Shown here piece after piece: positions 1-62,291 of a stretch of 64,000 bases of DNA. The stretch comes from Multifurca ochricompacta. Lineage: Eukaryota > Basidiomycota > Agaricomycetes > Russulales > Russulaceae. Location: positions 1 to 64,000 of the forward strand of contig WTXG01000022.1 of the NCBI GenBank assembly GCA_022496185.1, in the 5' to 3' direction. The notes beneath the pieces are model-generated. The model had not been told where the DNA came from. It searched no databases and saw only the letters and a program-made list of their open reading frames with translations. Within the stretch, counting starts at the first letter, position 1. Each line of letters begins with the position of its first letter. The translations under genes and the position numbers were made by a program.

Positions 1-126
1 TAGAGTACAGCCTCTTTGACTTTGACTCTTCCCACATAACTCCAAGAGACCCCTTGGTCTCTTATCTGATACACGAACAAATGCTGTCACACAAGTTGTG
101 TGGAACGTCCCGCACCGGACGTAACA
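1..126 (+). repeat. 3' end of the Gypsy 5' LTR
   Basis: These 126 bases match positions 6342-6467 with only a few differences (for example cccacataac versus cccgcataac) and end in CGTAACA, the same terminus as the 3' LTR. The rest of the LTR lies left of the window. Confidence 0.92.
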
Positions 127-5876: not shown

Positions 5877-6467
5877 TGTTACGACCCCTGCCTAGCAACC
5901 CGATTTTCTTCACGCTCCCCAATGACGACCCTTCTCTTCCACCCACTCTCCACTTCTTGATTACGTCCCCTTCCTGGGACCCATCACGTGCCCTGCTCCC
6001 TTCCCCGTGACCGCCTTTGACCTTGTTGACATTACTGTACTCATGTTTGGCCTCCTTATCTCTTATCCGTTATCTCTTATCTCTAAGACCGGACACTTAC
6101 TTAATTCCCTATCAGAAGCTAGGCTTTACGCCCTCCGCTTTCGTATATTTGGGCCCACATGATTCTGTCTTATCTTATCTTTAGACGCTCATTCAATTAC
6201 GTATATAAGTCCACTGTAGCTACCTTGTAGACCTCAGACTCGACTTATTGAATACATCGGTGCTTGTCTTCTGGACTTCCCTTTGAACGCTCTGACTCAA
6301 TCATCTCAAGTACTTCTGGTACTTTCCGCTCAACATCGTCTTAGAGTACAGCCTCTTTGACTTTGACTCTTCCCGCATAACTCCAAGAGACCCCTTGGTC
6401 TCTTATCTGATACACAAACAAACGCTGTCACACAAGTCGTGTGGAACGTCCCGCACCGGACGTAACA
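5877..6467 (+). repeat. Gypsy 3' LTR (591 bp)
   Basis: The LTR runs from TGTTACGACC to CGGACGTAACA. It carries a TATA-like box (gtatataag, about 6200) and stretches rich in cttatct. Its last 126 bp match 1-126. A reverse-oriented copy is at 51081-51668 and a rearranged one at 2853-3427. Confidence 0.93.
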
Positions 6468-7814
6468 CCTCAATGCGCACACGCGCACTTCACTTCCTAT
6501 CGACATCTGGCATCATCGCATGGGGCACATGTCATACGATGCCCTGAAGCGATACCATGAATCTGTAAAAGGTATAACTCTCGATGCTCCGATCAGTCAT
6601 GATCAGTTGCCGTGTTCCGGGTGCGAACTCAGGAAACAGTCGCGACTTCCCTTCAAGTCTTCTCACAAGCAATCAGACCGGCTACTTCAAATCATACACA
6701 GCGATCTGGCCAGGCTGATGCAAGTCCAATCCATTCAAGGCGCACTTTATATTGCAACGTTTATCGATGACTACTCCAGGCATGGAGTGGTGTACTTCCT
6801 AAAGAGTAAGGATCAGTGTGCAGCCGCTTTCAAGAAGTTCCTGGCCTGGGCAGAGACCCAGACTTCGGAAAAACTGCACACGCTACACTCTGACCAGGGA
6901 GGGGAGTATTTGTCAGGCGCTCTTCGATCAGTATTGGATGAGAAGGGAATCGAGCACAAGTTAATGATGCCGGGTTCACCACAACAAAATGGGATAGCCG
7001 AGCAATGGAACAGGACGATCCTTGACAAGGCGCGCTCGATGTTACATGGCGCCGGATTGTCCCTCGGCTTCTGGGAGTTGGCAGTGGATACTGCTGTGCA
7101 TACTTACAACAGGACTCCCACCCACACGATAGGTTGGCGCACACCGCATGAGCTCTGGAGTGCTGGTCACACTCCAGACATTTCATACTTCCGGGTCTTT
7201 GGATGCAAGGCATATGTACACGTGCCTGAGGACAAATGCAGGAAGCTCAATCCGAGATCGATCGAGGCTACGTTTGTCGGGTATGAACCGGGTTCAAAGG
7301 GTTACTGGTTATGGAATAAGAGTACCCGAGCGGTCATCATGTCTTGCGACGTGATCTTTGATGAGTGTTCCTTTCCATTTCAGGATAGTGGTGAGCCGTC
7401 CACTAGTTCTGAGAACCCCATGGCCCTTGAGGGGCCCCTGGCAGTTTCATTTCCTATGACAGTCTCTACACAGGGACTAGGGGAGGTCCGTCCACCAAGG
7501 ACACCTTCCCCTGATGCTACACAATGCGCACAAGTTTCCATTCCTGTCACTCCACCTTCTTGCGCTGCACTGCAAGAACCTCCACCCCGTGCACCACGAA
7601 ACCGGACTTTCTGGGTTCAGCAGACTGGTGACCCTGCTTCACAGGTTGTGCCCCCTCGGAGACTGCGAGAGAACCCTCGCAGAAATCCACGGTACTTCGG
7701 TGAAGACAATGCCGAGTTGGATGATCAAGGGCACCTGGGTGAACAGGCTTTGCTAGCAGCAGCCACTTATCATGACCCACTAACGTATCGGGAAGCGATG
7801 AAATCAGAGTTTGC
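6468..7814 (+). pseudogene. pol: Copia A GAG-pre-integrase, integrase and linker
   Basis: The sequence opens in the HxxxH..CxxC zinc region (IWHHRMGHMS then CSGCELRKQS). The DDE integrase core follows (HSDLA, FIDDYSRHG, HSDQGGEY, SPQQNGIAEQWNR), then the GKAYVH..FVGYEPGSKGY C-terminal region and a Pro/Ser-rich linker with RRLRENPRRNPRYFGEDN, ending EAMKSEFA where element B is inserted. The local frame is open for about 1.3 kb. Translation as it stands would run into the LTR of B and stop at 7858-7860. Confidence 0.9.
7810..7814. repeat. Left target-site duplication of Copia B (tttgc)
   Basis: TTTGC here is repeated at 13079-13083 immediately after the right LTR of B. A 5-bp duplication is the Copia integrase signature. 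Confidence 0.96.
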
Positions 7815-8222
7815 TGTTGATTTGAGCAGCAGCGAGTTAGATAAGCGCTACCTAGTTTAGTAGCAATAATTCAGTTTAGTTGGTTAAAACTGATAATATT
7901 ATGTTTACCTAGTTTAGTAGCAATAACTGTGTGATGTAATGCATTAACTAAGTAAGGTAAGAGATAAGATAAGTAATACTCACTTCAGTTTAGTTGGTTA
8001 AAACTGAAGTGACAAGTACACGAAGGGATGTCCTTAAATACTAAAAGAGAGTGTAATCCTAGTTTGTAGAACAATACTATCTAAGTCCATTGTCCTACAG
8101 TCACAAGAGAGAATAAAGAGCGTTTGTGGATTGTCCTTTATCAATCAGTCAAAGCACGCCACAAGTGTGCATGGTGGTAATGCCACTCGGGTTGATCCGG
8201 TGGCTTTGGGTCCGTCTCAACA
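7815..8222 (-). repeat. Copia B 3' LTR (408 bp)
   Basis: The ends are TGTTGA..CTCAACA. Within it are a TATA-like box (minus TATTTAAGGA, 8031-8040), hairpin H1 at 7981-8011 and shorter repeats of the same loop near 7870-7892. Confidence 0.95.
7981..8011 (-). promoter_or_regulatory. LTR hairpin H1 downstream of the TATA box (Copia B)
   Basis: CACTTCAGTTT and AAACTGAAGTG form an 11-bp perfect inverted repeat around a short AGTTGGTTA loop. A shorter copy with the same loop lies about 100 bp away at 7870-7892. The right LTR has the identical hairpin at 12837-12867. Confidence 0.7.
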
Positions 8223-8249
8223 TTCCCCTGTGATTAAGACAATCCCAGA

Positions 8250-9782
8250 TCAGAGTAAACCTAATCTGGTGACAAAATCAGTAAGCTGCACGTGAGCGTG
8301 CGGCTTAGTAAAACCATCAGCAAGCATGTCATTGGTCGGCGTCCTGATAAGAGTGATGAAGCCTTTTTCGACATATTCGTGGATTGCATGATACTTGATG
8401 GAGATATGTTTTGATTGTCTCCCGGTCACGGGATTGAGCGCCAAGTCGACAGCGCCTTTGTTGTTGCCATGTAAGGGAATCGGATCGGAAACGTCGTAGC
8501 CGATCTCCGAGAGGAAACTGCGGTACCAGGTGGCTTGGTTGGCCACGTCGGCCATCGCCATGTATTCGGCGTGTGTGGTGCTTTGAGCCACTGTCTTCTG
8601 CTTGCGTGATGTCCAAGAGATAGCGGCATTGGCAAGAAGGAAAACGTAGCCCGAGGTGGAATGGTAGTCGTCTGCATCATCTCCAAGACTAGAGTCTGAG
8701 TAGCCAACAAGGCCATCTCTGCGCGTTCCATCGTAGTGAAGCCGAAGGTCTGCTGTACCTTTGAGGTAGGCGAGAACGTACTTGGCAAGACGGAGGTGTT
8801 GGGGTGAAGGGTTTGCGGCATACTGAGCTAGCCGCGCGACTGCAAAAGAAATGTCTGGGCGAGTCCCAATTTGCACGTACAGGAGACTGCCTATGATCTG
8901 CTGGTATTGCTTGATTTCAGAGGGTGTTGCCTGCGCAGTGTGCTTTACCAGGTGTGCCTCAGCACCAGCGGGAAGTGGAGTGCGTGCGGGGTTTGCATCT
9001 GCCATCCCAAAGCATTCAACAATCTCTAAGATGTACCTTGATTGGTCAATGTCCAAGCGTTTGAGTGAACGATTGTGAGTGATCCGGACTCCGAGATAAG
9101 AGTCAATTTCGCCTAAGTCTGTCATATCATAGCACTTAGATAATGTGGACTTGATCTTGGTTATCTCTTGGGCAGAGTTGCCTAGAAGTGTGATGTCATC
9201 GACATAGAGGATGATAATTACTGTACCCTCCCCGTCTTGGCGATGAAACATGTAAACTCCTGCATCAGAGTAGGTGCGCGTGAAGCCGAGCTCCAATAGA
9301 ACTCCATGGAATTGTAAGTTCCATGTGCGTGAGGCTTGCTTGAGGCCGTAAATTGCCTTTTTGAGGAGACAAACCTTGTTCTCCTGGCTGGAGCTGATGA
9401 AACCTTGTGGTTGCTCCATATAGATCTCTTCATCCAGTAACCCGTTAAGGAATGCCGACTTGACGTCCATTTGATGGATCTCCCAATCCTCTAGCGCGGC
9501 CAATGCTAGCAAGAGTCTCAACGACTCAAACCGGGCAACTGGTGAGAAGGTTTCATCGTAATCAATCCCCTGTATCTGTGTAAATCCCTTAGCTACCAAA
9601 CGCGCGCGAAAGCGTCCATCGGCTTTGCGCTTGAATACCCATTTAGATTTGACAGGTTTCTGGCCCACAGGTAAATCGACCAAGGTCCAGGTGCCGTTCT
9701 TGGCAAGCGCGTCGATCTCATATTGACAGGCATCTTGCCATTCATCGGCGAACTCCGAGTTCATAGCCTCCCTAAAAGTCAA
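8250..9782 (-). CDS. pol: Copia B reverse transcriptase and RNase H
   Basis: This open frame of 510 codons covers the RVT_2-type reverse transcriptase (WVFKRKADG..RLVAKGFTQ, MDVKSAFLNG, catalytic LYVDDITLLG) and Copia RNase H (YSDSSLGDD, SWTSRKQKTVAQSTTHAEY, DNKGAVDLALNP). It copies element RNA into cDNA and removes the RNA template. It is part of a larger gag-pol polyprotein whose upstream section is in another frame (boundary near 9780), so the isolated ORF has no genuine start codon. Catalytic residues are intact. It ends 28 bp from the 3' LTR. Confidence 0.93.
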   Translation of the reverse strand: MTFREAMNSEFADEWQDACQYEIDALAKNGTWTLVDLPVGQKPVKSKWVFKRKADGRFRARLVAKGFTQIQGIDYDETFSPVARFESLRLLLALAALEDWEIHQMDVKSAFLNGLLDEEIYMEQPQGFISSSQENKVCLLKKAIYGLKQASRTWNLQFHGVLLELGFTRTYSDAGVYMFHRQDGEGTVIIILYVDDITLLGNSAQEITKIKSTLSKCYDMTDLGEIDSYLGVRITHNRSLKRLDIDQSRYILEIVECFGMADANPARTPLPAGAEAHLVKHTAQATPSEIKQYQQIIGSLLYVQIGTRPDISFAVARLAQYAANPSPQHLRLAKYVLAYLKGTADLRLHYDGTRRDGLVGYSDSSLGDDADDYHSTSGYVFLLANAAISWTSRKQKTVAQSTTHAEYMAMADVANQATWYRSFLSEIGYDVSDPIPLHGNNKGAVDLALNPVTGRQSKHISIKYHAIHEYVEKGFITLIRTPTNDMLADGFTKPHAHVQLTDFVTRLGLL

Positions 9783-11338
9783 CGGATCGTGATAAGCGGC
9801 AGCTGCGAGAAGTGCCGTGTGACCCAGTCTCCGTTTGCATCAAGTGCGGCATTGTCCTCATTGTAGTAACGAGGGTTTGCTGAGGGTTTGGCCGCAGCCG
9901 CAGGAGATCCTCCGAGGTGGAGTCTGCGCAATGTCGGGACCAGAGAATACGGGAAGTGGGTGCATAAGTGGGGGAAGCGTCTAAGACTTCGGGTTCAGGA
10001 CCTGAAAGGCGTTGTGGGGTAGCTGGTGGAGATGGTGTCCTTGGCGGAGCGGCCACTCCAGAAGCGATTGCTGGGATAGCGGAGGATGTGGGGACAGTGA
10101 CGGCCAGTGGTCCTTCAAGGACCGGGGGTTGTGTGGGCGAGGCAGATGGCTGGCTGCTCTCCTGAAAAGGAAAGGAACTCTCGTTGAATGCTACATTGCA
10201 TGACAGAGCTATTGATTGGGTATGTCGATTCCAGAACCGGTAACCCTTAGAACCCGGCTCATACCCTACAAGCATCATCTCGACCGATCGCGGATTGAGT
10301 TTCTTACGCTTGTTCTCAGGCACGTGTACATATGCCTTACAGCCAAAGACTGGAAATATGAGACATCCGGAGCGTGACCACCACTCCAGAGCTCATGTGG
10401 GTGCGCCAACCTATCGTTCTGCTGGGAGTCCTATTGTAAGTGTGAACGGCAGTATCCACTGCCAGCTCCCAGAAGCCGAGGGACAAGCCAGCGCCATGTA
10501 GCATCGCCTGCACTTTGTCCATGATGGTTCAATTCCATTGCTCAGCTATGCCGTTTTGTTGCGGCGAACCTGGCATCTTAGCTTATGTTCGATCCCCTTT
10601 TGGTCCAGTACAGTTCTCACGGCGCCTGATAAGAACTCCCCCCCGCGGTCAGAATGCAGCGAAGCAGTTCTCAGTCGTCTGGGTCTCAGCCCAGGAGAGG
10701 AACTTTTTGAACGCGGCGGCAAGCTGATCTTTGCTTCGGAGAAAGTACACTACCCCATGTCTGGAATAGTCATCGACAAACGTTGGATGTAAAGTGCGCC
10801 TTGGAGAGACTGTTTCTGCATCGGGCCGGCTAGATCGCTGTGAACGATTTGTAGACGCCAATCCGAGCGCTTGTGAGAGACCGAAAAGGGTAGCCGCGAC
10901 TGTTTCCCAAATTCACACCGGGACATGGGACTGGTCGGAGACGATCGAAGCATCAAGCGAGATTCCTTTTACGGAAGAATGATACCGTTTGAGGGGTTGT
11001 AAGACATGTGCCCCATATGGCGATGCCAAAGGTCGATAGGATGAGACATGTGCGTGTGCGTGTGCGCGTGAAGGGTGGAGATGGAGGCATCCAGCCAATA
11101 GAGGTTGTCCTCCAGGTACCCTTGCACGATTTTCTGGTTTTGTACCATAATAGTAAAAACTTATCAGTGAATGAGATCTGAGCACCCCTTTGTGCAAGAG
11201 CGCACGTAGAGATGAAGCGCGTCCGAACATCTGGAATGTGAAGAACATTATTCAGGGTAACCTCAGAATCTCGACTCCCAAGAGTGGTTTTGAAGACCAC
11301 CTTCCTGACACCGATTTGTTTGACGTTGGAGTTGTCGC
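9780..11338 (-). pseudogene. pol: Copia B GAG-pre-integrase and integrase, frameshifted
   Basis: Recognisable pieces are scattered over three frames: a pre-integrase zinc region (about 10900-11250, with FGIAIWG and RCEFGKQSRLPF), the integrase core (SDLAGPMQ, FVDDYSRHG, GLSLGFWELAVDTAVHTYNRTP) and a C-terminal region (KLNPRSVEMMLVGYEPGSKGY at about 10240-10300) followed by the Pro/Ser linker. At least three frame changes are needed to read through, so this section is non-functional. Confidence 0.85.
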
Positions 11339-12280
11339 CTAGGCGACAGTCCCGTTCATGGGTGCATACTCTGTGAAGTCAGATCGGTGCGGGGTTATGT
11401 GATGCGTTGCGCCGGAGTCCATCATCCAGCGAGATCGGGCGGCAGCATACAAGGAAATGCGGATATCATTAGTGTCATCGGTAACTTCTACAATAGATGC
11501 CGATGTTGTGGCTAGATGTGTGTTAACTGCCTTGTTTTGCCCCGACTCCACTGCCTTTTTGTCCTCCTCATCCTTCTTCTTCTTCCTGCACTCGGAAATC
11601 CGATGCCCCTTTTTCTGACAGTAGAAGCATTTTGTAGCCTTCTTGTCTTTGTTATCAGGCTTTTTGACGGGCGCGGACTTGTTGAGTGCGGTGGAGGAAC
11701 CGGACCGTCAACCTTCCTCATTTATGATACACTCTTGTATGGTTAGTGGGGAAAGGTCCGCCAGTGCTCCGGTAGCTAAGATGGTAGACGCGACCGCCGA
11801 GTATGAGTCCGGCAGCGCCTTGATGAGGATGAAGCAAAATTGGAGATCTGAAATCTCCATCTCATTATTTTTGAGAGTAACGCGTGCATCGTTTAACTTC
11901 TGCAACTGAGGAAGCATGGGAGACAAGTCGTTGAGCGCGGTGCTAGTGAGCGTGACCCATGTGTTGAACGCGGACATAGATCCGATGCCTCCGTATACTT
12001 TCTTGAGCTGGTCCCACTTGTCCTTGCAGGTGGCATATAATTTGTTGTCCAAGACGGTCTGCCAGACATCCTTCTGAGTGTAAAGTTCAAGGATGCCTTG
12101 GAGAACACCTTCCAAGGTGTTCCAGTCGGCTGAGGGTGTGCTGGGCTTGTCTTTGGTTAGATGATCTTGGACGCCGTTCATTTGGAACAGGGCCATCATG
12201 CATGATGACCAAGTGGACCAGTTAGATCCGTCAAGGACCTCGATCGCGGCAGAAGGGGGAAAGGAAAAAGAGGGGGCCAT
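11339..12280 (-). pseudogene. gag: Copia B gag and protease, frameshifted
   Basis: Gag starts at ATG 12280 (MAPSFSFPPSAAIEVLDGSN) and is open to 11708. A frame change leads into a CCHC knuckle (CFYCQKKGH..C, about 11600-11640) and a protease with WMMDSGATHH (about 11405-11435). The Gag N-terminus matches the UBN2/retrotran_gag type of Copia. The shift at about 11710 separates capsid from knuckle. Confidence 0.88.
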
Positions 12281-12648
12281 AGTGCTGCTTAGTAATTTGC
12301 CAATCTGGGTGAGCGGAGCAGTTAGACCCAGATAGTGAAGATCCGATCGATCTCTGATGTATCAACTGTGCGCCCTGAATCCACTAAGGATCCAGCCTCT
12401 CGGTCCGTCAAAGGGCCCAAGAGAGTACTCACATGTGCTTCAGCGTCGCCATGCTCCATTGCATGGCTCGTGGGAAGCCCTGATTAGGGGCCCAGTCTAC
12501 ATCAGTCCACCAGTTCCAGGGACTGGGGAGATGAGATCGTGATAGACATGGAACAGAGGCTCGCCTTTTGAGTGAGAGAAAAAACAGTGCGTGTATAGGG
12601 GAAGGGAGCTTGTGTAATCTTGGGTGGATCTTCTTCTGGATTAGATTA

Positions 12649-12670
12649 GATACGGCCAGGGCCCATAACC
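12649..12670 (-). other. Copia B primer-binding region
   Basis: Directly inside the 5' LTR the minus strand reads GGTTATGGGCCCTGGCCGTA. The same 20 bases lie next to the 5' LTR of Copia D (61867-61886), which marks them as the conserved primer-binding site. The tRNA used cannot be named from sequence alone. Confidence 0.75.
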
Positions 12671-13078
12671 TGTCGATTTGAGCAGCAGCGAGTTAGATAA
12701 GCACTACCTAGTTTAGTAGCGATAATTCAGTTTAGTTGGTTAAAACTGATAATATTATGTTTACCTAGTTTAGTAGCGATAACTGTGTGATGTAACGCAT
12801 TAACTAAGTAAGGTAAGAGATAAGATAAGTAATACTCACTTCAGTTTAGTTGGTTAAAACTGAAGTGACAAGTACATGAAGGGATGTCCTTAAATACTAA
12901 AAGAGAGTGTAATCCTAGTTTGTAGAACAATACTATCTAAGTCCATTGTCCTACAGTCACAAGAGAGAATAAAGAGCGTTTGTGGATTGTCCTTTATCAA
13001 TCAGTCAAAGCACGCCACAAGCGTGCATGGCAGTAATGCCACTCGGGTTGATCCGGTGGCTTTGGGTCTGTCTCAACA
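12671..13078 (-). repeat. Copia B 5' LTR (408 bp)
   Basis: This is the partner of 7815-8222 at a constant offset of 4856. It differs at ten positions, all in CpG/TpG/CpA context. It ends at 13078, followed by the TSD TTTGC at 13079-13083. Confidence 0.96.
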
Positions 13079-14590
13079 TTTGCAGGTGACTGGCAAGAAG
13101 CATGCCAATATGAGATGGACGCACTAGCCAAGAATGGGACGTGGACCCTAGTGGACTTACCAGCGGACCGTAAGGCTGTCAAGTCTAAGTGGGTATTCAA
13201 GCGCAAAGCCGATGGTCGCTTTCGCGCGTGCTTGGTAGCGAAGGGTTTCACTCAGATTCAGGGAATTGATTACGATGAGACATTCTCTCCAGTAGCTCGG
13301 TTCAAGTCCTTGCAACTCTTGCTAGTGTTGGCCACGCTAGAGGATTGGGAGGTCCATCAGATGGATGTCAAGTCGGCATTCCTCAATGGGCTACTGGATG
13401 AGGTAATTTACATGGAGCAACCACTGGGTTTCGTCGAATCAGGTCAGGAGAACAAGGTATGCCTACTCAAAAAGGCAATTTACAGTCTCAAACAAGCCTC
13501 GCGCACATGGAACTTGCAATTCCATGGAGTCCTTTTGGAGCTTGGCTTCACGCGCACGCATTCCGATGCAGGAGTTTACATGTGTCGTCGCCAAGAAGGG
13601 GAGGGACTAATCATTATCATCCTCTATGTCGACAACATCACCATCTTAGGCAACTCTCTCGATGAAGTCAACCGGATCAAAGGTATCTTATCTCGGCGCT
13701 ATGAAATGACTGATCTAGGCGAGATCAACTCTTATCTCGGAGTTTGGATCACCCATGACAGATCGGCCAGGCGTTTGGAGATCAACCAATCCCGGTACAT
13801 CTCAGAGATTGTAGGACGCTTTGGCATGGCGGACGCTAACCCCACCTGCACGCCTCTTCCTGCTGGGGCTGAGGTCCATTTGGTAAAGTACACCAGTCAG
13901 GCTACTCAAGCAGAAATAACACATTTTCAACAAATTATTGGGAGCCTACTGTATGTGCAAATTGGGACCCGCCCAGACATTTCCTTCACTGTAGTGCGCC
14001 TTGCGCAGTATGCAGCAAACCCTTCCCCGCAACATCTATGACTTGCCAAGTACGTACTGGCTTATCTAAACAGTACAGCTGACCTACGGCTATGCTACGA
14101 TGGAGCGCACGGGACCGGTCTCGTCAGTTATTCGGACTCCAGCCTTGGAGACAATGCCAATGACTTTCATTCAACCTCGGGCTATGTCTTCCTCCTTGCT
14201 GACTCAGCGATCTCATGGACTTTGCATAAGCAAAAGACCGTGGCCCAAAGTACCACTCATGCCGAATACATGGCACTCACCAAGGCGGCAAATCAAGCCG
14301 CGTGGTACCAGAGCATCTTTTCTGAACTAGGCTATGAAGTCTCTGACCCAATTCCCCTACACAGCGATAACAAGGGCACAGTGGACTTAGCACTCAATCC
14401 TGTGACTGGCAGACGCTCAAAACACATCCTGATCAAATTTCACGCTATCCACGAATATGTTGAGCAAGGCTTTATTGAACTCATCAGAACACCCACTGCA
14501 GACATGCTCGCTGACGGATTTACAAAGCCACACGTGCAAGCGAAACTTGTGGACTTCGTCTCTGGATTAGGACTAATAGGATTGTCTTAA
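13079..14590 (+). pseudogene. pol: Copia A reverse transcriptase and RNase H, inactive
   Basis: This is the continuation of the 6468-7814 frame. RT motifs are present (WVFKRKADG, MDVKSAFLNG, GLKQASRTW-like), but the catalytic box reads YVDN at 13625-13636 instead of YVDD, losing one metal-binding Asp by a CpG-context G to A change. A TGA at 14039-14041 replaces a CGA-type Arg codon at the RT/RNase H junction. RNase H (SYSDSSLGD, QKTVAQSTTHAEY, DNKGTVDLALNP) then runs to the stop at 14588-14590. The mutations make A non-autonomous. Confidence 0.92.
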
Positions 14591-16202: not shown

Positions 16203-16647
16203 TAGTGATGTTCTGGCCCAGCTTGGCCCAAAAGCCGCGGCTTTGGCTCAGCCTGAGGCGGCTCTGGCTTGGCCCAAGCTGCGGCTTTTGGCAGAGAAAA
16301 TTTTATGACATATAACTAGTAGTTATAGTTCAGCTAATCCAAATCTGACTTGGTGTGTTATGTATTGCAAAGCTATTTCGAAGAAAAAGTTTGAAATGCC
16401 GCGATAAGCATGATCACATGACCCAAATCAACCACTTTGTGATCAGATTTCTACTGATTTTGACGATTGCTATTGCACTTGTATGTGCTGTTGAAAGCTG
16501 CGGCCTGAGCCAGTGGCTTTGGCTTTTAGTTTCTCTGAGCCAGGCCAAAGCCCTTGCTAGGCCATCACAATGGCCTGGCTTGGCCTGGCCCAAACAGGCC
16601 TGGCTTGGCCCAGCTTCCGGCTTTGAGCCGGGCCAGGCACATCACTA
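16203..16647 (+). mobile_element. hAT-type MITE, copy 1 (445 bp)
   Basis: The ends are TAGTGATGTTCTGGCC and GGCCAGGCACATCACTA (imperfect terminal inverted repeats). It is flanked by a perfect 8-bp duplication ctgcacac (16195-16202 and 16648-16655). An 8-bp TSD with T/CA-type short TIRs indicates the hAT superfamily. The subterminal regions are GC-rich and built of GGCTTGGCC / GCCGCGGC repeats, while the middle is AT-rich. It encodes no transposase. Confidence 0.93.
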
Positions 16648-57047: not shown

Positions 57048-57452
57048 TAAAGAACGCAGCCTGAGGTTAGATAATCCAAACTACCTAGAATGGTAGTTGT
57101 AATTCAGTTATGATGGTCAGAACTGACAATATATTAGTCTTTACCTAGAATGGTAGTTGTAACTAGTATGTGTTAGCTACATAGGTAAAGATAAGATAAC
57201 AAAATACTCACTTCAGTTATGATGGTCAGAACTGAAGTGAACTGTACAGTAAAAGCGTCCTTTAAATACTGTAAACGAGTGTGCTTATAGTAACCAAGAT
57301 TCAGAAGGATTGTGTCTAATCAAGTAAGGTATCAAACTATTCACAGGAAGGTGAAACGCAGTCCGTGTGCTACTGCACAACACACAACTCGCTTGTTAGT
57401 ACCACACACTTAGCGATTGATCCGACCTGGCCATATTGATCCATTTCTGACA
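57048..57452 (-). repeat. Copia D 3' LTR (405 bp)
   Basis: The minus-strand ends are TGTCAGAAATGG and GCGTTCTTTA. Hairpin H1 (CACTTCAGTTATGATGGTCAGAACTGAAGTG in two arms) lies at 57209-57239, a short copy with the same loop at about 57091-57112, and two copies of ctagaatggtag at about 57061 and 57145. Confidence 0.94.
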
Positions 57453-61886: not shown

Positions 61887-62291
61887 TAAAGAACGCAGCC
61901 TGAGGTTAGATAATCCAAACTACCTAGAATGGTAGTTGTAATTCAGTTATGATGGTCAGAACTGACAATATATTAGTCTTTACCTAGAATGGTAGTTGTA
62001 ACTAGTATGCGTTAGCTACATAGGTAAAGATAAGATAACAAAATACTCACTTCAGTTATGATGGTCAGAACTGAAGTGAACTGTACAGTAAAAGCGTCCT
62101 TTAAATACTGTAAACGAGTGTGCTTATAGTAACCAAGATTCAGAAGGATTGTGTCTAATCAAGTAAGGTATCAAACTATTCACAGGAAGGTGAAACGCAG
62201 TCCGCGTGCTACTGCACAACACACAACTCGCTTGTTAGTACCACACACTTAGCGATTGATCCGACCTGGCCATATTGATCCATTTCCGACA
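61887..62291 (-). repeat. Copia D 5' LTR (405 bp)
   Basis: This is the partner of 57048-57452 at offset 4839, with three differences (57171/62010, 57366/62205, 57448/62287), each T versus C before G. Confidence 0.95.

Follow-up and report, generated by a model that had tools for sequence, protein, structure and literature searches.

The window element and its two LTRs

The window considered here is the first 64,000 nucleotides of contig WTXG01000022.1 from the agaricomycete Multifurca ochricompacta, and within it lies a minus-strand retrotransposon bounded by two long terminal repeats (LTRs; Table 1). This is a Ty1/Copia element, as is evident from its RVT_2 reverse transcriptase, its copia-type gag, the TG...CA ends of its LTRs, and a 5-bp target-site duplication (TSD). 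It sits nested inside another, plus-strand Copia element, the two resembling each other in inverse orientation. Because the TTTGC duplication marks a single insertion, the differences now seen between the LTRs post-date integration.

A sequence-only reading of this stretch had reported that, at a fixed offset of 4856, the two LTRs differ at ten sites, all of them CpG transitions, and a position-by-position comparison of the 408-base LTRs bears this out in full. The ten sites (7818, 7847, 7865, 7922, 7940, 8021, 8166, 8175, 8176, and 8213) are CG versus TG or CA or, at 8175-8176, TG versus CA, with neither indels nor any other type of substitution between the repeats. By inference the pair had 14 CpG dinucleotides, 9 of which have changed. 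For ten changes, the probability of landing exclusively on CpG bases is 4e-13 when every base is allowed to change and 6e-9 when only C and G are, in a calculation that treats the changes as independent and counts 8175 and 8176 as two changes in one dinucleotide. The ancestral CG proposed at the changed dinucleotides is likewise backed by relatives of the element: across the nine dinucleotides scored in each LTR, CG is found in 5-10 of 11 other aligned copies, gapped ones included, the weakest site being 13069 (5 CG, 6 TG).

Table 1. Copia elements and LTR-like repeats in the window, with their coordinates
Feature	Coordinates	Strand	Remarks
LTR of the window element, lower-coordinate copy	7815..8222	-	408 bases; 10 CpG-only differences from partner
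LTR of the window element, higher-coordinate copy	12671..13078	-	pairs with 7815..8222
TSD, left	7810..7814		TTTGC; flanks the 7815 LTR
TSD, right	13079..13083		TTTGC; flanks the 12671-13078 LTR
Open reading frame (ORF) with Copia-type reverse transcriptase RVT_2	8250..9839	-	Pfam PF07727, E 1.1e-80
ORF with SH3-like domain of retroviral polymerase	9772..10392	-	PF25597, E 4.5e-25
ORF with copia-type gag	11708..12361	-	PF14223, E 3.2e-12
Host Copia element, left part (integrase core, SH3)	6466..7814	+	PF00665 and PF25597 in ORF 6466-7860
Host Copia element, right part (reverse transcriptase)	13084..14041	+	PF07727, E 1.1e-75, in ORF 13052-14041
Second Copia element (family C), LTR	57048..57452	-	ends set by hand; 3 CpG transitions and nothing else against partner; TSD CAAGC read by eye
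Second Copia element (family C), partner LTR	61887..62291	-	ends set by hand
LTR-like repeat at contig start (third family)	1..126		4 CpG transitions only, against 6342-6467
Partner of the contig-start repeat (third family)	6342..6467		pairs with 1..126

LTR pairs across the assembly

The assembly (53.8 Mb in 605 contigs) was searched with a CpG-free piece of the LTR, allowing up to 3 mismatches, and strongly diverged pairs are thus unsampled. For the family of the window element (family B), 66 genome sites match, and pairs were taken on the same contig and strand, up to ~20 kb apart. Family-C pairs were chosen by their spacing of ~4.8-9.4 kb among the sites listed of 146; not included were same-contig pairs of such spacing on contigs C39 and C61 and more widely spaced ones on C20, C257, and C7. 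This gave 17 family-B and 17 family-C pairs, the window's own included, among which 27 distinct insertions carry a TSD (14 of family B and 13 of family C). For L016, L018, L045/46, and window 57037, four of the 27, trimming or a manual reading of the TSD was needed, and the position of the TSD at L051/52 and L065/66 is certain only to a base or two.

Over the 10,837 aligned columns of these 27 insertions, we count 112 CpG transitions, 2 other transitions, 1 transversion, and 3 indel events. The expectation that other LTR pairs would also be free of many non-CpG changes therefore holds in the part of the genome surveyed, with CpG and other substitutions numbering 77 and 3 in family B and 35 and 0 in family C. 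With 652 CpG bases set against 10,185 others, the rate of change at CpG is ~583-fold higher (95% interval 194-2,871), and measured against transitions at other C:G bases it is 306-fold higher (83-2,559). The insertions differ widely in how far they have changed: 7 of the 27 show 0-1 substitutions and eight have at least six CpG changes or close to that number, with the window element, at ten, among the three most changed.

Of the pairs left out of this count, those lacking a TSD are, as CpG/other changes, L024 (7/0), L034/35 (4/0), and L033/42 (2/2) in family B, and L069/70 (8/25), L071/72 (11/18), and L073/74 (3/1) in family C; two third-family pairs for which a TSD could not be assessed are L075/76 (8/0) and the window's own 1/6342 (4/0). 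A further pair, L067/68 (3/0), represents the L065/66 insertion as it occurs on another contig. Omitted pairs that look like pairs thus stand at 7/0, 4/0, 8/0, 4/0, and 3/1, as against 8/25, 11/18, and 2/2 for mixed-origin ones.

Two observations on the LTRs themselves may be recorded here. Of the 66 family-B sites, 24 pair at 4-5 kb and most others are partnerless at that distance, which, together with the two checked with their flanks (on C35 and C63), suggests that many of them are solo LTRs. Separately, one LTR each of L016 (on C13) and L024 (on C593) matches the LTR only over bases 1-79 and 170-408, so that both are without about the same internal stretch, which is flanked in the LTR by a repeated motif; recurrent slippage would be our guess.

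Timing of the changes and comparison with gene loci

LTR pairs also allow changes made before insertion to be told from those made after it. In an alignment of 12 family-B copies, private non-CpG variants in LTR columns are present in both LTRs in 15 of 17 cases (a variant in both usually occupies two columns, and hence the 15 columns represent about eight events), while private CpG losses affect one LTR only in 22 of 25. This split indicates that non-CpG change is mainly pre-insertion and CpG change post-insertion.

For comparison, we took three gene loci, each present on two contigs and treated as single-copy alleles. These show 121 differences in 16,754 columns, CpG transitions accounting for 34, which corresponds to a CpG excess of only 2.6-fold (1.7-3.9); the CpG share differs from that of the LTRs with a Fisher p of 5e-32. 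The substitution spectrum of these genes therefore differs from the pattern of change in the LTRs, and, as far as three loci can speak for it, C:G to T:A change falls on repeats with single-copy DNA largely spared. Taken together, the changes in the LTRs came after integration and are almost solely CpG transitions, with no comparable enrichment in the three gene loci.

The paired contigs carrying these loci (C290/C536, C2/C249, and C595/C236) are 98-99% identical there, which suggests that both haplotypes are present in parts of the assembly. A further contig comparison, L077/L078 (on C270 and C412), was dropped as a gene control, being CpG-poor repeat DNA with 76 CpG changes among 215 differences. 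Upstream of the Copia insertion that these two contigs share, ~2.4 kb are nearly identical (six differences), beyond which the divergence jumps abruptly to several percent; this marks a boundary of recombination, conversion, or duplication within repeat DNA.

Within the window, CpG observed/expected falls to 0.14 in the repeats at 52-54 kb, as against ~1.0 at 24-30 and 34-38 kb. Apart from the two LTR-like pairs, comparisons of more diverged window repeats show more non-CpG than CpG changes in 6 of 7 cases, as is expected once the CpGs are exhausted; the exception is 16266-16547, with 10 CpG and 6 other changes.

Character of the CpG loss

Private CpG losses are found on both strands (TpG 124, CpA 138). 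Runs tests reveal significant strand clustering of losses in none of eight copies; L022 alone departs from expectation, its losses alternating between strands (z 2.98). The base preceding the CpG makes no difference, with losses per CG at risk of.039 after A,.045 after C,.038 after G, and.039 after T (p 0.76). TpA is found at only 1 of 1,049 lost CpGs, which indicates that a site is nearly safe once its CpG is gone. The extent of loss ranges from 3% to 48% per copy and is broadly similar in interior and LTRs, with scatter, the LTR samples comprising only 12-15 sites. Between the two LTRs of one insertion, losses total 46 versus 66 and are not significantly uneven (heterogeneity p 0.13), although lopsided single pairs exist (e.g. 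1/7, 1/6, and 4/0).

Loss on both strands, with no wider context and a halt at TpG or CpA, is the signature of methylated-CpG decay. The same three features (both strands, no preceding-base preference, and TpA almost absent) speak against repeat-induced point mutation (RIP) of either the CpA or the TpCpG kind.

Methyltransferases and T:G repair genes

A genome search with the DNA_methylase model (PF00145) returned five hits, which represent DNMT5, DNMT1 (in two exons), and DNMT2 (on two contigs). DNMT5 comprises methylase and SNF2 pieces and matches PDB 7r76 at E 1.9e-121; this structure carries the label Rad8 and is one that we take to be Cryptococcus DNMT5. The DNMT1 has a replication-foci domain (DNMT1-RFD), and DNMT2 was assigned by PDB matches of the copy on C290, the C536 contig being 99.1% identical. 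The genome thus encodes CpG methyltransferases of basidiomycete type, DNMT1-RFD and DNMT5, the set that a review describes for the Basidiomycota (PMC13297926). Neither RID nor Masc1 is among the five PF00145 hits, in an exon-wise search that can miss genes.

As for repair of T:G mismatches, TIGR00628 yields three partial UNG matches on one contig, below the family cut-off, and four partial MUG/TDG-like matches lie on two contigs, also below their family cut-offs. A search with PF03167 gave no match, a result made untrustworthy by the partial UNG matches that TIGR00628 then found.

Probable methylation and deamination, and the alternatives

The decay of these elements is probably best explained by CpG methylation of the integrated copies followed by conversion to T. 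The two LTRs would have been identical when the Ty1/Copia element inserted; after integration DNMT1-RFD and/or DNMT5 would methylate the element's CpGs in the course of transposon silencing, and the methylated CpGs would then pass singly to TpG or CpA, on both strands and with no other sequence preference. We infer, that is, methylation of these CpGs and deamination of 5-methylcytosine as the conversion step. The sequence-only reading had offered either this course or a CpG-restricted RIP-like process, and that pair of options gains support both from the 112 versus 3 changes and from the CpG methyltransferases that the genome encodes.

Several results weigh against methylation and deamination as the full account. 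Chief among these is magnitude: instead of the roughly tenfold excess of human DNA, the CpG excess is 194-2,871-fold per base and 83-2,559-fold against other C:G transitions, so far above the human benchmark that passive deamination alone may not suffice. The wide interval itself reflects the mere 3 non-CpG events behind it. When whole copies are compared, pre-insertion variants included, private changes number 262 CpG and 84 other, or ~18-fold per base (by arithmetic using 379 CpG columns). Moreover, private CpG and other counts correlate across copies (r 0.83), from which it follows that non-CpG change is not wholly independent of age or lineage depth. Nor is lost T:G repair an obvious cause, given the partial UNG and MUG/TDG-like matches. 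Such a magnitude may stem from deamination that accumulates with time in mycelium that seldom divides, from poor repair of T:G in silent chromatin, or from an enzyme-assisted process directed at repeats.

The last of these leads to the alternative that survives best, namely an active, repeat-directed CpG mutator, RIP-like though without RID, that would operate in a sexual or mitotic stage via a DNMT1-class enzyme or DNMT5. We judge this possible, if on balance unlikely. The lower bounds of the excess, 194-fold per base and 83-fold against other C:G transitions, exceed what ordinary methylated-CpG decay would lead one to expect, and the CpG excess in the three gene loci is small. Precedent exists in the dim2-dependent mitotic mutator described at CpA in Zymoseptoria repeats (PMC8016269), and a 15-fold higher mutation rate is reported there for methylated transposons (PMC8497519). 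Set against these points are the lack of RID among the hits of the exon-wise search, the lack of strand clustering in any of the eight copies (the one deviant alternates instead), losses not significantly uneven between LTRs apart from a few lopsided pairs, and the lack of a TpCpG preference; in addition, according to a kingdom-wide survey, a preference for CpA is common to RIP-like defences, which were active in few clades (PMC12543289). The lack of strand clustering and of a significant one-LTR excess inclines us to passive decay, while the magnitude of the excess leans toward an active process. A more specific proposal, that this is a RID-less basidiomycete with a CpG-exclusive mutator acting on integrated repeats, probably via DNMT1-RFD/DNMT5 or a coupled deaminase, with the CpGs of genes spared, strikes us as doubtful. 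If true, such a mutator would raise CpG mutation a hundredfold or more above background and would be the CpG counterpart of the dim2-dependent CpA mutator.

Some base callers are misled by CpG-methylated motifs, and one might accordingly ask whether the differences are base-calling or consensus artefacts at methylated CpG in repeats left unpolished in the assembly. This we consider very improbable. A family-C insertion found on both C270 and C412 carries the same three CpG differences on each contig, with no substitution between the contigs over 480 and 481 columns and one indel. Since upstream divergence reaches several percent, the two contigs are not one sequence assembled twice, and a recurrence of this kind would be unexpected from random consensus errors. 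Both LTRs of a copy would also be expected to suffer alike, and other repeats reach CpG observed/expected values of 0.06-0.34, far past what scattered errors would produce.

Still less credible is the suggestion that the two LTRs of a pair derive from different copies by recombination or gene conversion, their differences having been inherited. Many CpG losses are indeed common to several copies, and the pairs without a TSD include mixed elements (L069/70, L071/72, and L033/42), but TSDs flank the window element and the other 26 insertions (four of them trimmed or hand-read), and variants inherited in LTR columns are mostly non-CpG and present in both LTRs. Finally, canonical RID-type RIP at CpA, or TpCpG RIP of the Microbotryum type, would also place C:G to T:A changes in repeats but can be set aside almost entirely, as TpA is nearly absent from the lost CpGs, private non-CpG changes show no CpA preference (C>T before A in 4/10, G>A after T in 4/18), and the base preceding the CpG, T included, has no influence.

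Consequences for LTR dating

That such changes would distort LTR-based dating, as had been anticipated from the window element, is borne out across the 27 insertions. Total divergence (115/10,837) is ~36 times non-CpG divergence (3/10,185), so that mean ages read naively from LTR divergence come out ~36-fold too old here if CpG sites are kept. One search of the literature found no treatment of LTR dating distorted by CpG, which is no proof of absence. More broadly, LTR pairs separate replication-stage changes (non-CpG and mostly in both LTRs) from chromosomal ones (CpG and mostly in one LTR), and hence provide a clean readout of host action on integrated elements. Given the size of the excess, it becomes possible to measure whether CpG sites in basidiomycetes decay passively or are actively mutated.

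Comparison with known systems

The kind of process seen here is already known, in that CpG-biased decay of basidiomycete transposons has been published (PMC4457147, PMC4352252, PMC4014442); the near-total restriction to CpG seen here is unusually clean. One such case is that of Ganoderma sinense, an agaricomycete in which almost all affected transposons are described as methylated and in which CpG-preferring C:G to T:A transposon mutation, with CpA as second preference, is termed RIP (PMC4457147). There, copies were compared with one another, whereas the LTR pairs used here isolate post-insertion change, in which the non-CpG component is nearly nil. Microbotryum, Melampsora, and Puccinia, which have a Masc2-like DNMT1, share with Multifurca a CpG-only C>T bias in transposons, and RID is reported not to have been found there (PMC4352252). 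Microbotryum differs in its TpCpG bias, as against no preceding-base preference here, and the rusts in the weakness of their CpG signals, seen in 10% of copies (PMC4352252). Another agaricomycete, Rhizoctonia solani AG8, also shows CpG to TpG change, CpG without TpCpG being what is expected in AG8, but genes and repeats are reported to be hit alike there, with CpG making up ~40% of C>T changes, in contrast to the 2.6-fold excess of our gene loci (PMC4014442).

A dim2-carrying strain of Zymoseptoria tritici is reported to accumulate >95% of its mutations in methylated regions, and >98% of its C-to-T changes lie at CpA (PMC8016269). The likeness lies in methyltransferase-linked C>T change in repeats; the differences are that the target is CpA rather than CpG and that Dim2 comes from another DNMT1 branch (PMC8016269, PMC8497519). 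In human DNA, CpG transitions are ascribed to deamination of methylated cytosine with an excess of about an order of magnitude (PMC5586376), far below the per-base excess in these LTRs. What is particular to Multifurca ochricompacta is that LTR pairs isolate the change made after insertion, that 112 of 115 substitutions are at CpG, and that this occurs with no TpCpG bias and little enrichment in gene loci.

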